64,000 nt of DNA from Pseudomonadota bacterium (GTDB taxonomy: Bacteria; Pseudomonadota; Alphaproteobacteria; Acetobacterales; Acetobacteraceae). The position numbers were made by a program, and so were the translations under genes. The stretch covers positions 1-64,000 of the forward strand of contig JAJZFA010000005.1 in the NCBI GenBank assembly GCA_021805565.1. The letters are read 5' to 3'. Below are positions 32,687 through 36,775 of this stretch, in pieces (positions within the stretch are counted from its first letter, which is position 1; the number at the start of each line of letters is the position of its first letter). The notes below the pieces were generated by a model. That model saw only the letters and a program-made list of their open reading frames with translations. It searched no databases and was not told the origin of the DNA.

Positions 32687-33535
32687 TCAGAAGGTTACTT
32701 CGGCGTCCATCGCCAGATGGCCGTCTGGGTTACGTGCCCACAGCGCGGCGCCGCCCTTGCCATCGGGGGCGCCATGCACCGAGAACGCGGCGATGTCGAA
32801 CAACGGACTGACCGCGCGAAACCGGAACGATTTGACCGGTTCGACGGTGTTCCGCCGCAACAGATCGATCAACAGCGTTGCGATCAGCGGGCCATGCACA
32901 ATCAGGCCAGGATAACCCTCGGTCTCCGTCACGTAACGCCGGTCGTAATGAATGCGGTGGCTGTTGAACGTCAGCGCGGAGTAACGAAACAGCAGCGCAT
33001 CGCTGGGCTGGATGTCGCGGTGCCAGACTGCGTCAGTGCGCACCGGACGGGGCGCGGCCGGTGCCTCCCCTGCCCCAGGCGCGTCGCGATAGACGATGTC
33101 GTGTTCCTCTTGCAGCGCCAACCCGTTTGCGCCGGAGATTTCATGCCGCACCAGCACGAAGCACAACGCGCCGTTGCGGCCCTGTTTGATCGTAACGTCT
33201 TGCACGGTGGAAACGCGGGTAATCGGTTCATCGACGCGTAACGGCTGGTGGAAGGTGAACCGCCCGCCGGCCCACATGCGGCGGGGCAACGGAACCGGGG
33301 GCAGGAAGCCGCCGCGCGCCGGATGGCCGTCCGGCCCCAGGATGGATTGTCGGGCGGTGGGAAGGAAATACAGCCAGTGCCACAAGGGCGGTAACGGGTC
33401 GCCGGCGGCGGGCGGCTGGTCGTCGCGGTCCAGCGTCGCCGACAGCGCCGCAACCGGAAAACGCGTGACCCGGTCGTGCAGGGTTTCCTGCCTGCCGATC
33501 CAGGATCGCAGCAGATCGACGTTCAATTCGGTCAT
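32687..33535 (-). CDS. MaoC/FAS1-like hydratase (HTD2, mesaconyl-C4-CoA hydratase type)
   Basis: This 282-aa protein of the double hot-dog HTD2/FAS1-like dehydratase group includes mesaconyl-C(4)-CoA hydratases. It carries LPRRMWAGGRFTFHQPLRV in the N-terminal hot-dog and, in the second, the MaoC-type LTFNSHRIHYDRRYV with the catalytic Asp/His region, then LIVHGPLIATLL. It should hydrate a C4-C5 enoyl-CoA. ATG 33535 overlaps the TGA of the upstream lyase gene (ATGA), indicating coupling and a common pathway. The specific substrate is not determined. Confidence 0.8.
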   Translation of the reverse strand: MTELNVDLLRSWIGRQETLHDRVTRFPVAALSATLDRDDQPPAAGDPLPPLWHWLYFLPTARQSILGPDGHPARGGFLPPVPLPRRMWAGGRFTFHQPLRVDEPITRVSTVQDVTIKQGRNGALCFVLVRHEISGANGLALQEEHDIVYRDAPGAGEAPAAPRPVRTDAVWHRDIQPSDALLFRYSALTFNSHRIHYDRRYVTETEGYPGLIVHGPLIATLLIDLLRRNTVEPVKSFRFRAVSPLFDIAAFSVHGAPDGKGGAALWARNPDGHLAMDAEVTF

Positions 33536-34890
33536 TTCGATAACTCCAGCGCGGTTATCCGGGCACGAACGGCGCCTTCGCGCGCCATATCGGCACATAG
33601 ACCGGTATAGGCAACAGGGTCCAGCAGGGCGCGAATGCGATCCGGCGTCATGTGCGCGGTGACGCGCGGGTCGGCGGCCAGCAAATCCCCGAACGATTGG
33701 CCCCGCACGAAAGCGTCCTGCGCCGCGTCATACACCGCGTCATGCGCATGCTGGCGGCCGATCGCCGACCCGAGGCCGAGCATGACCGCTTCCGCCATGA
33801 TGAGGCCGCCGCCAAGGTCTAGATTGGTCCGCATCCGAACCGGATCGAGACGCAGGCCGCGCATGATTTCGCCCAGGCGGCTCAACATGTCCCCAGTGGC
33901 GATGCAGGCTCGGGATTCCGCTGTATCCATCATCAGACTTGTAGTGCGGTCCGCCTCATGTTCGGTGGTCATGGCTTCCAGGGCGAGCGGCACCTGCGAG
34001 CGGATTTCGGCGGCGGCGGCGATCGTGTCCTGGCAGAGTTTCGGATTTCGTTTCTGCGGCATGGTGGAACTGCCGACGGTGCCGGGCGGCACGGGTTCTT
34101 CGACCTCGGCGAATTCGGTCTTCATCATCGTATAGATTTCCCGGCCGATTTTACCGCAGGTCGCGGCAAGCAGGCCCAGCAACACGACATTTTCGGCGAG
34201 ATGATCGCCAATGGCTCGGGATGGAACAGTCATGGAACCAAAACCCAGAAGCCGGGCGATGCCCTGCTGCACCCGCGGGCCGTTCTGGCCGAGGGACGCA
34301 TAGGTTCCGGCGGCACCGCCCAGCATGGCAACGAACAGGCGCGGCGCGGCCTGACGGAACCGGTCCGCATGGCGGATAAGCTCGTCGATCCAGGCCGCGA
34401 CCTTGAAGCCGAAGGTGGCGGGAACGGCGTGCTGACCGTGGGTGCGACCGGCGATGGGCATGGTGGCGCCGCGTTCGGCGAGTGCCGCCATCGCGGACAG
34501 GATTTCGCCGATCTGACGCAGGAACACGGCATGCGCCTGACGCAGCACCAGCAGATCGCCGGTTTGGGTAATGTTTTGCGTGGTGGCGCCCCAGTGAACC
34601 CAGCCGCCATGCGGGTCGCCGACGACGCGGCCGAGTTCCCAGACCAGCGGCACCAGGGTGTGGCCGGTGCGGGCGAAGCCTTCGTCGATGCGGGTCCGGT
34701 CCAGGTTTTCCAGCCGGGCGGCGGAGGCGATCGCTTCGGCGGCGGCGGTAGGGATAATGCCCAGCGCAGCCTGCGCCCGGGCCAGCGCCACTTCCACGTC
34801 GAGCCAGGCCTGCCAGCGGTTTTCCAGCCGGTACAACGCCCGGATGCCTGGGTCGGCCACGCGCGTGGCGGTGGGTAACGTGTCGCTCAT
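33532..34890 (-). CDS. Fumarase/aspartase-superfamily lyase (PcaB/PurB-like)
   Basis: This 452-aa all-helical lyase of the class II fumarase/aspartase/adenylosuccinate lyase superfamily has the signature GSSTMPQKRNP near residue 275 and the substrate segments WVHWGATTQNITQTGD and AGRTHGQHAVPATFG. Its sequence is closest in style to 3-carboxy-cis,cis-muconate cycloisomerase and related uncharacterised lyases, not to a housekeeping PurB. ATG 34890 follows a strong GGAGGAAA. It is coupled to the HTD2-type hydratase downstream, suggesting a dicarboxylate or CoA-ester degradation pathway. Confidence 0.85.
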   Translation of the reverse strand: MSDTLPTATRVADPGIRALYRLENRWQAWLDVEVALARAQAALGIIPTAAAEAIASAARLENLDRTRIDEGFARTGHTLVPLVWELGRVVGDPHGGWVHWGATTQNITQTGDLLVLRQAHAVFLRQIGEILSAMAALAERGATMPIAGRTHGQHAVPATFGFKVAAWIDELIRHADRFRQAAPRLFVAMLGGAAGTYASLGQNGPRVQQGIARLLGFGSMTVPSRAIGDHLAENVVLLGLLAATCGKIGREIYTMMKTEFAEVEEPVPPGTVGSSTMPQKRNPKLCQDTIAAAAEIRSQVPLALEAMTTEHEADRTTSLMMDTAESRACIATGDMLSRLGEIMRGLRLDPVRMRTNLDLGGGLIMAEAVMLGLGSAIGRQHAHDAVYDAAQDAFVRGQSFGDLLAADPRVTAHMTPDRIRALLDPVAYTGLCADMAREGAVRARITALELSK

Positions 34891-35025
34891 GGCGGTTTCC
34901 TCCGTGCGGAAGGATCGCAGCAGGGGGCGCGGGCGGCAAGGGCGAACCGCAACGATATTTCATCCGATGCACAAAAATCCCAGGTGGAAGCAACCCATCT
35001 CCGGCGTCGGCGCTTGCCCTATATT

Positions 35026-35694
35026 TCATGGCTTCGTGTTCAGCAGGGCCGAGACGCTTTCAACTCTGTCGAGCCAATCGATCGCACTGTTGCTTCTCCA
35101 CCCAATCATATCCCGTAACATGAAGAATTCGGCCTGGAGATTGCGGTTGAATATAGGTTCATGATGGGCAATGCGATTCCGCAACTTTCTGACCGTGAAA
35201 AGATTTCGGTGGGCCGCAAGCCGCGCGGCCGGTATCGGGACGGCAGGGCCGATACAGGGAAACACAGACGAAAGATGAGGAATCCACAGACCGCCATCCT
35301 GACCAGAGGTGAATATCTGCTGCCAAAAAGCGAATTTAAGCTCCGCGATTACCTTTCCGGCTGTCTTTTGTACCTTGGCCAGATTGATTAGATCGATCCG
35401 GGGATTGTACTGGAATGGGCTTTTAGGGATCGGCAGGCTCTGAACGAACCCCTTCGACCAAGGCCAATTTTCACCGTGTACTCGTTCGAGAGCCTCAGCT
35501 ACGCCATTCCGTATCGCGATTTCGCACATTTGCAGCGGAACAAAAAAGGCAGCCGATATCTGAAAATTCCATTGATATAAAGCAAGGGCGTTCGCCCTAT
35601 CGTTAGAGGCAACCTTCAAATAGGTGGCAAAGCGCGGCGCCGATATGACGTCCGGCAGAGTCTGTAGCTCCGCTTCGGAGAAGCTGGCGGGCAC
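35026..35694 (-). CDS. Abi-family protein with HEPN-type RNase motif
   Basis: This 222-aa protein of the Abi-like (Abi_2/AbiD-F) group has LYQWNFQISAAFFVPLQMCEIAIRNGV in the N-terminal half and the family hallmark RKLRNRIAHHEPIFNRN near residues 169-185. Arg172...His177 fits the HEPN RX4-6H catalytic motif for metal-independent RNA cleavage. Such proteins act in phage abortive infection or as toxins. The base composition is clearly poorer in GC than the flanking genes, suggesting transfer. The GTG 35694 start has GGAA close by. A structured RNA candidate with its own promoter and terminator lies about 55 bases upstream on the other strand. Confidence 0.8.
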   Translation of the reverse strand: MPASFSEAELQTLPDVISAPRFATYLKVASNDRANALALYQWNFQISAAFFVPLQMCEIAIRNGVAEALERVHGENWPWSKGFVQSLPIPKSPFQYNPRIDLINLAKVQKTAGKVIAELKFAFWQQIFTSGQDGGLWIPHLSSVFPCIGPAVPIPAARLAAHRNLFTVRKLRNRIAHHEPIFNRNLQAEFFMLRDMIGWRSNSAIDWLDRVESVSALLNTKP

Positions 35695-35714
35695 GTTCCA
35701 ATCGAATACCCTAC

Positions 35715-35745
35715 TTGATTCCTAAGCCGGACAGCACTATCTAAT
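35715..35745 (+). promoter_or_regulatory. Candidate promoter of the structured RNA
   Basis: TTGATT at 35715-35720 is followed by TATCTA at 35738-35743 (17-bp spacing) or TCTAAT at 35740-35745 (19-bp spacing). This would start transcription near 35750 on the plus strand, divergent from the Abi gene. Confidence 0.4.
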
Positions 35746-35750
35746 CTCTC

Positions 35751-35844
35751 ACAGAAGGCCCTGAGACATGCGGGCGAAAGCCCTCCCTCATCGCCGCTAG
35801 ATATTGCGGAAAAACGCCTGCCAGCAATGGCAGGCGTTCTTTTT
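35751..35844 (+). ncRNA. Candidate structured small RNA beside the Abi gene
   Basis: About 94 nt with three consecutive hairpins. The first is TGAG...GGGC-GAAA-GCCC...CTCA (35762-35790); the second is CCGC-loop-GCGG (35794-35809); the third is an 11-bp terminator stem with a GCAA loop (35813-35838) followed by CTTTTT. Two of the three loops are GNRA tetraloops on the plus strand but not on the minus strand, which supports this orientation. There is no ORF, and a promoter-like sequence lies upstream. It is not recognised as 6S, SRP RNA or tmRNA. It may be an RNA antitoxin or regulator of the adjacent HEPN protein, which is inference. Confidence 0.45.
35813..35844 (+). terminator. Strong intrinsic terminator
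   Basis: The perfect 11-bp stem AACGCCTGCCA/TGGCAGGCGTT (35813-35823 and 35828-35838) has a GCAA loop and is followed by CTTTTT. On the minus strand it could also stop transcription leaving lpxA, since AAAAA precedes the stem. Confidence 0.85.
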
Positions 35845-35950
35845 AGCTGCGGGAACGTGTTGCGGCATCATCGCCCTCATCCGCCACGAATTAGACCGTG
35901 GCCTGGTCGCAATAGTGGAAACTACGCCATCGCCATGCAGCCGAAGGTCG

Positions 35951-36775
35951 TTATTCCGCCCGGATCATCCCGCGATGGCTCGGAGCGTCGATAAACGCCA
36001 GCACTTCGGCGACCAGGGGATCGCTACCGAATTTTTCGCGCGTGGCTTCCAGCCGCTGGGCGAACACGCCTTCCTTGCTGTACAGCGTCTTGAACGCAAT
36101 ATGCAGACGATGAATCGCCGCCTTGTCGAAACCCCGGCGCCGCAGGCCGATAATATTTAAGGCCGCCAGACGAGCCCGATTGCCGATAACACTGCCGAAC
36201 GGGATCACGTCGGCTTCCACCCCGGAAACCCCGCCGACCATCGCGGCCCGGCCGATGCGGACGAACTGATGAATCGCCGCCGCGCCGCCGATCACGGCAT
36301 GGTCGCCGATGGTCACATGCCCCCCCATCACCGCATTGTTCGCGACGACCACGTGATCGCCTAGTTGGCAATCGTGCGCGACATGAACCACCGCCATCAG
36401 CATACAATCCGAACCGACGCGGGTGACGCCAAGCCCGGTCGCGGTGCCGCGATGGATGGAGCAATGTTCGCGCACCAGCGTCCGAGCGCCGATCTCGCAC
36501 CGGGTTGGCTCATCGCGGTATTTCAGGTCTTGCGGCGCGAGGCCCACGGTGGAGAACGGGAACAGTTGAGCGCACTCCCCAATGCGGGTGTGGCCTTCGA
36601 CAACGACGTGCGACATCAGCTTCGCACCGGCTTCGATGACGACATCCGGGCCTACCGAACAGAACGGACCGATCTCCACACCCGGCCCAAGTTCGGCGCC
36701 ATGCGCCACGATCGCGGACGGATGGATGCTGGTGCGGCCGTTCGCGGCCAGTCTGATATTCGTCATAGAATCCAT
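35951..36775 (-). CDS. lpxA: UDP-N-acetylglucosamine acyltransferase
   Basis: This is the first step of lipid A synthesis: transfer of a 3-hydroxyacyl group from ACP to UDP-GlcNAc. The 274-aa left-handed beta-helix protein has hexapeptide repeats from residue 16 (IHPSAIVAHGAELGPGVEIG) and the catalytic His region VHVAHDCQLGDH. IIGLRRRGFDKAAI and a C-terminal helical domain follow. ATG 36775 with AGGGA upstream is used; ATG 36766 is an alternative. It is the last gene of the envelope block. Neither lpxI nor lpxB follows here, unlike in many relatives; the next elements are the terminator/RNA and the Abi gene. Confidence 0.95.
   Translation of the reverse strand: MDSMTNIRLAANGRTSIHPSAIVAHGAELGPGVEIGPFCSVGPDVVIEAGAKLMSHVVVEGHTRIGECAQLFPFSTVGLAPQDLKYRDEPTRCEIGARTLVREHCSIHRGTATGLGVTRVGSDCMLMAVVHVAHDCQLGDHVVVANNAVMGGHVTIGDHAVIGGAAAIHQFVRIGRAAMVGGVSGVEADVIPFGSVIGNRARLAALNIIGLRRRGFDKAAIHRLHIAFKTLYSKEGVFAQRLEATREKFGSDPLVAEVLAFIDAPSHRGMIRAE

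Follow-up and report, generated by a model that had tools for sequence, protein, structure and literature searches.

The closest described systems pair an Abi_2-family HEPN toxin with a non-coding RNA. In the available text of PMC12373285, C. difficile AbiF is a toxic protein that the RNA RCd22 neutralises through direct RNA-protein binding. AbiFr likewise neutralises PbAbiF, as summarised in the accessible part of a review (PMC12737573), and the HEPN domains of Cas13 group with those of AbiD/F in the excerpts of PMC12165695. A further phage-defence gene from an E. coli plasmid, PD-T4-5, was selected against T4, acts by abortive infection and is termed a 'distant relative of AbiF/D'; the available text of Vassallo et al. 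(PMC9519451) calls it toxin-antitoxin-like with no antitoxin named. We have analysed a stretch of 64,000 nucleotides of alphaproteobacterial DNA (the window) in which a gene for a HEPN protein, here abi, lies head-to-head with a candidate small RNA. The features are summarized in Table 1.

Table 1. Features of the abi-RNA locus in the window, and of a different divergent element found at related loci
Feature	Position	Strand	Remarks
Lyase_1/ADSL_C gene	33532-34890	-	Other flank of the abi + RNA module
Inserted module	34945..35945	.	abi + RNA only; ~1 kb between lpxA and the Lyase_1/ADSL_C gene; ends approximate, by eye
HEPN Abi_2-family protein gene, putative RNase toxin	35026..35694	-	222 aa, GTG start, RNRIAHH at residues 172-178
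RNA promoter	35715..35743	+	-35 TTGATT 35715-35720, 17-nt spacer, -10 TATCTA 35738-35743
Divergent structured small RNA gene, putative RNA antitoxin	35751..35844	+	~94 nt; R1 match 35751-35804, 48.9 bits
Helix P1, 5' strand	35759..35765	+	Partner 35787-35793; 5/7 pairs formed in the window
Hairpin P2, GGGC-GAAA-GCCC	35772..35783	+	Sequence and conserved structure
Helix P1, 3' strand	35787..35793	+	Partner 35759..35765
Intrinsic terminator	35813..35844	+	11-bp stem, GCAA loop, CTTTTT tail 35839-35844
lpxA	35951-36775	-	Flanks the abi + RNA module
Other divergent element	L156 2432-2572; L178 641-772; L179 491-613; L180 643-764; L183 640-761	divergent	Upstream of ~305-aa Abi genes

The open reading frame with its RNRIAHHEP motif is as given in the initial annotation of this DNA. 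R172 and H177 are unvarying across 66 aligned sequences, an invariance that is partly ascertained, NRIAHHEP being one of the six patterns used in the homologue search. The alignment (A2) comprises the window and 65 of 80 homologue loci, and leaves out near-duplicates (L016, L032-L034, L037-L043, L070 and L079) and two loci with broken frames (L073 and L087). The window protein matches Pfam Abi_2 (PF07751) with 27.0 bits against a gathering cut-off of 25.6, the best stretch covering residues 163-183 only, and 59 of the 66 sequences match at E ≤ 0.001. All 66 match the PADLOC PD-T4-5 model at the same threshold, the window protein with 52.4 bits as a partial match in stretches only. A search of NCBIfam gave no match to the window protein, and a sequence profile search of the PDB gave no convincing relative (best E = 0.24). 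The AF2 model of the protein has a pLDDT of 96.4, and its nearest solved fold is 8vz6, PbAbiF-ncRNA, at 14% identity; the AbiF-like HEPN fold with RxxxxH is present. This match, together with the accessible text of PMC12373285 and PMC12165695, bears out the link between Abi proteins, AbiF and Cas13 that the initial annotation had put forward.

The candidate RNA is on the opposite strand to abi, 56 nt from its GTG start; its 5' end is inferred from a model match and the promoter position. The predicted architecture consists of P1 (seven pairs) around P2 (four pairs) plus a C-rich strand; a tail and the terminator come next. Within the RNA the sequence varies mainly in a short linker preceding the terminator. 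The initial annotation described a GAAA hairpin (35772-35783), an 11-bp stem with a GCAA loop (35813-35838) and CTTTTT (35839-35844), all of which are found in the sequence. Its second hairpin, presumably CCGC...GCGG at 35794-35809, has no place in the structure that is conserved; there the second helix is P1, formed around the GAAA hairpin. The GNRA loops were taken to fix the strand, but they are only suggestive, since the P2 loops of homologues are often not GNRA. The strand is better set by the T-tract on the outward side and the conserved -35 and -10 elements. The whole RNA has a folding-energy z of -3.67, mainly due to the terminator. For the core alone z = -0.41, and its support therefore comes from covariation and conservation and not from energy. 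Neither in the window nor in 20 homologue loci does the RNA match any Rfam family at its gathering score. Thr_leader was set aside as a sub-threshold match to 35752-35844 (26.8 bits against a cut-off of 55, E = 0.0048), and homologue loci show further sub-threshold matches to Rfam leaders and sRNAs.

Homologue loci were sought in bacterial and archaeal genomes, and the best 80 of 543 were used. When the upstream regions are read outward from abi, the same element can be seen by eye in most of them. We built a covariance model, R1, from the 54-nt core of 35 seeds including the window, with the terminator excluded, and applied it to both strands of 575 kb, made up of the window and 86 loci. R1 matches at E ≤ 0.01 in 72 of the 80 loci, always on the opposite strand and at the 5' end of abi. 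These comprise 34 seeds and 38 non-seeds, the latter holding 30 distinct cores, none identical to a seed; matches elsewhere in the 575 kb have E ≥ 0.43. The match in the window is the sole one there and in its own genome. Four of the 80 loci give weak matches (L028, L030, L035 and L044, E = 0.011-0.27), L086 (E = 0.47) and L059 (E = 0.92) have matches below significance in the correct place and strand, and L047 and L082 have none. Six relatives from the family sample were also searched; R1 is found in L004 and L005, and gives no match in L006-L009 (24-40% identity). The distance from the RNA 5' end to the assigned abi start has a median of 51 nt and a range of -5 to 138 nt (77 RNAs). The hairpins are thus conserved beside homologues, where the initial annotation had allowed that they might not be, and what it saw as a variant in one alphaproteobacterium is a widespread family.

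As the window was itself a seed, profiles were also built without it. A sequence profile blind to the window finds 35757-35803 (+) with E = 5.3e-10, the next best match being at 2.6. A 'non-alpha' profile of 19 rows, made by removing the window and 15 alphaproteobacterial rows (L053 and L063, still labelled alphaproteobacterial, were retained), finds the window RNA at 7.2e-6, with the next best at 2.4. RNA and protein distances are correlated over 54 loci (Mantel r = 0.75, 0/9,999). A DNA search with 35690-35960 against 59 genomes, its own included, matched one other, over 36 bases with E = 9.7e-4.

Covariation was analysed in two alignments, whose counts are inflated by the relatedness of the sequences. 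The RNA alignment (A1) holds 63 sequences, the window and 62 of the 80 loci; the 18 omitted are exact duplicates, loci with no terminator or a wrongly chosen hairpin, and L077, L081 and L086. For the named structure, which in this alignment includes an unproven pseudoknot and the terminator, there are 171 cells with changes on both sides against a shuffle mean of 54.5. The covariation score is 0.367, compared with 0.215 for shuffles and 0.071-0.173 for slid versions, and is reached by none of 500 shuffles. In the core alignment (A3, 34 rows plus the window), taking P1 and P2 only, there are 43 such cells against 15.8 and a score of 0.306 against 0.184, with none of 500 shuffles as high; in the further-pair-types measure, one of five, 17 of 500 shuffles attain the observed value. 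Because the core structure was first drawn up manually from the paired columns and only then counted, part of its edge over the slid controls is built in. In many of the alphaproteobacterial RNAs, that of the window included, two of the P1 pairs do not form. RNAalifold applied to the 63-row alignment returns the terminator only and no core structure. The four-pair pseudoknot (A1 columns 32-35/65-68) was left out of the model as unproven; 61.8% of its cells are paired, and both sides change at only one of the four pairs.

The promoter claimed for the window, TTGATT-17-TATCTA, scores 7/12. Taken alone this is at chance level, and it is made credible only by its conserved position in homologues. 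Upstream of 77 RNAs the best sigma-70-like pair has a mean score of 9.36/12, compared with 7.29 in mononucleotide shuffles. These promoters are mostly TTGAC(A/G/T) with 16-18 nt before a TATAAT-like element, and end a median of 3 nt before the start of the model. On the abi strand of 81 loci we find no sigma-70-like signal above shuffles (6.93 against 7.10); the two scans differ in region and rules, and each has its own shuffles. The abi starts at these 81 loci, assigned mechanically, are 53 ATG, 19 TTG and 9 GTG.

Independent samples were searched in the same manner. Among 26 homologues on viral contigs, R1 is found at E ≤ 2.1e-7 on the opposite strand in L130-L137, which are those matched full-length at 35% identity or more; six of these have proteins that are 96-100% identical. 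At 17 other viral-contig loci (25-33% identity, L155 having 38% over 51 residues) there is no R1 below E = 0.5, and L138, also counted among the 18 of 26 lacking R1, ends at the contig end upstream. In a phylum sample of 398 genomes a local R1 lies beside all eight proteins of at least 200 bits, the window included, though three of these matches, from one genus, are weak (E = 5e-4 to 6e-4); 17 further loci at 162 bits or less have no significant R1. In a class sample of 270 genomes the figure is four of four proteins of at least 260 bits, again including the window, with G658 reaching only E = 0.11; no significant R1 was found at 15 further loci of 184 bits or less. Taken together, these comparisons show the RNA, at the level of sequence, to be a conserved gene-like unit with promoter, terminator and covarying helices, which travels with the toxin gene across phyla.

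The low GC content noted for the gene is correct, being 52.8% compared with 64.2% for the window, and 1.9% of windows of the same size are equally low. The module as a whole has 53.2%. In seven of 19 same-genus loci (L189, L192 and L194-L198) the lyase gene comes 57-289 nt after lpxA and abi is absent; the stretch examined at the other 12 showed no lyase gene. The extra ~1 kb in the window holds abi and the RNA alone, and therefore the pair moves as a unit. Plasmid relatives are common, an Escherichia homologue being matched in 615 of 72,556 records.

R1 also occurs away from abi. Genome-wide matches at E ≤ 0.001 were found in 10 of the 398 phylum-sample genomes and 7 of the 270 class-sample genomes, with one beside abi in 5 of the 10 and 2 of the 7 respectively. 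Strong matches lacking an adjoining abi are present in G585 (E = 1.7e-8), G602 (3.3e-16) and G715 (3.4e-16); in G602 a separate contig carries a distant abi relative. The RNAs of G602 and G715 are close to the abi-adjoining sequence in G805, with differences mostly outside the stems as judged by eye. The remaining matches, near threshold at 2e-4 to 9e-4, may be due to chance. RNAs that lack abi are the asymmetry expected of an antitoxin, and so count for that reading; they may be relics.

In L094 (1501-1556), L228 and L229 (both 1501-1553) a terminator-like hairpin comes after an R1-type RNA that has no adjoining abi, and the flank in L228 and L229 resembles by eye the end of a PIN-domain toxin gene. 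L095 (1501-1555, the second match in G343) has an R1-type core between unrelated genes with no clear terminator by eye, and is apparently decaying. Matches to the RNA occur in 118 plasmid records, and among the 60 matches listed 54 start at query base 15. In two ColE1-like Salmonella plasmids, L176 (~1090-1200) and L177 (~2000-2070), one deletion joins the HEPN-motif end of abi to the RNA core. It removed most of abi, the RNA promoter and the RNA 5' end, and these plasmids are therefore not counted as toxin-less RNAs; on these two examples the idea that enterobacterial ColE1-like plasmids keep the RNA without the toxin was rejected.

We consider it probable that the two genes form a two-part module, in which a HEPN ribonuclease toxin related to Abi_2 and PD-T4-5 is inhibited by the divergent small RNA until phage infection. 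It is supported by the R1 matches beside 72 of 80 homologues and in the independent samples, the covariation, the correlated RNA and protein distances, the fold match to RNA-bound PbAbiF, and the precedents of RCd22 and PD-T4-5. Against it stand the eight loci that fall short of E ≤ 0.01, the more distant relatives that give no significant R1, its absence from the E. coli PD-T4-5-type plasmids, and the co-directional position and different motif of RCd22. The defensive and RNA-controlled character of the pair, the role of the RNA as antitoxin, the RNase activity and its release on infection are inferred. The RNA would be made in excess and fold into P1 and P2. It would bind the HEPN dimer as AbiFr and RCd22 bind AbiF, and occlude the RNase site. 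Once host transcription is shut off or RNA decays on infection, the short-lived RNA would be lost, and the freed RNase would cut cellular RNA, such that growth of the infected cell stops before progeny phage are made.

Other readings must be set against this. It is unlikely that the RNA regulates expression of abi and not the protein, as an antisense to a long abi leader or by promoter interference at the abi start. The -35 and -10 elements do lie beside or over the abi start region, given the median of 51 nt, and only the RNA strand has promoter scores above shuffles (9.36 against 7.29, compared with 6.93 against 7.10 on the abi strand). Yet a pure antisense needs no covariation in P1 and P2, which preserves structure and not sequence, and the nearest solved fold binds its RNA. 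Moreover, the abi starts are mechanically assigned, and abi promoters may not be sigma-70-like. We regard it as very improbable that the RNA activates or guides the nuclease as a Cas13/crRNA-like cofactor, even though the HEPN domains of Cas13 and AbiD/F group together (PMC12165695, in the text available) and an RNA bound beside the HEPN site could hold a guide. The variable linker before the terminator is short for a guide, the protein has 222 amino acids and one HEPN motif, and RNAs exist with no adjoining abi.

Least credible of all is that the hairpin is a mere terminator of lpxA or of the surroundings of abi, with the rest due to chance. By eye it is near-symmetrical and might act towards lpxA as well, and the folding energy of the core is unremarkable. 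Against this the P1/P2 core is conserved in 72 of 80 homologues, the window-blind profile gives E = 5e-10, and none of 19 same-genus lpxA loci has a significant R1 (no match below E = 0.05). The initial annotation had itself raised termination of lpxA, but no lpxA or lyase match is present at any of the 80 homologue loci. As judged by these sequence comparisons, the terminator is refuted as a full explanation.

More tentatively, and with rather less than even confidence, we propose an unrecognised class in which PD-T4-5-related 'single-gene' abortive-infection systems are toxin-RNA pairs with the antitoxin RNA head-to-head. A strong RNA promoter overlapping the toxin start region would couple antitoxin synthesis, toxin transcription and toxin binding, and protein subgroups would have swapped RNA scaffolds (R1, and at least one other divergent type in a ~305-aa sister group). 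A search of titles and the beginnings of abstracts in open-licence PMC found no divergent RNA described for PD-T4-5-like or Abi_2 genes, though an earlier description is possible. Catalogues list PD-T4-5-type genes as defence genes of a single protein. The conserved RNA is a testable missing partner for the R1-type relatives, and a marker for finding more such genes.

AbiF with AbiFr or RCd22 shares with the present locus an Abi_2 HEPN protein and a non-coding RNA. However, RCd22, in which the abiF motif RF03085 is found, is in the text available a co-directional leader with another motif, abi being reached by read-through, whereas the RNA here is divergent at 72 of 72 positive loci. RF03085 gave no match at E ≤ 5 in 35600-36000 of the window or in 10 homologue loci, and none at gathering score in 20 homologue loci; on this comparison the window RNA is not the known abiF motif. 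AbiF in 8vz6 has 297 amino acids compared with 222. Full-length matches to the PD-T4-5 model are seen for two proteins of E. coli plasmids (445 and 440 bits, the pO26-S3 protein having 445 bits over 309 aa), and thus the window protein, with its partial match, is a shorter relative of PD-T4-5 and not PD-T4-5 itself.

The hypothesis that R1 accompanies the E. coli PD-T4-5 genes failed, as neither of the two loci has a match. There the PD-T4-5-type gene follows the RNAI of ColE1 (630-729 in both) co-directionally, after 56 nt in L181 (gene 786-1715) and 71 nt in L182 (801-1715); this copy-control RNA might serve the toxin as well. Five Abi relatives of ~305 aa have in common another divergent RNA-like element, AGGUUGGUGA...GACCU, that carries a TTGAC promoter and a terminator-like end, and a third type, resembling an H-type pseudoknot by eye, is seen in L157, L158 and L184.

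Type III toxin-antitoxin systems (ToxIN-like) would share with the module an RNA antitoxin that holds an RNase toxin, freed on infection. Their antitoxin RNA is a tandem-repeat array that shares an operon with the toxin gene, whereas here there is one structural unit per locus (one significant R1), divergent and in no co-directional operon. The putative toxin here is HEPN, which we take to differ from the ToxN fold. CRISPR-Cas13 (type VI) belongs to a HEPN nuclease lineage related to AbiD/F (PMC12165695, from its accessible text), but has two HEPN domains where the window protein of 222 aa has one conserved RxxxxH motif, and the RNA is single copy in window and genome. The R1 RNA would give the AbiF/Cas13-ancestor fold a second RNA architecture, and bears on how RNA-inhibited HEPN toxins turned into RNA-guided nucleases.
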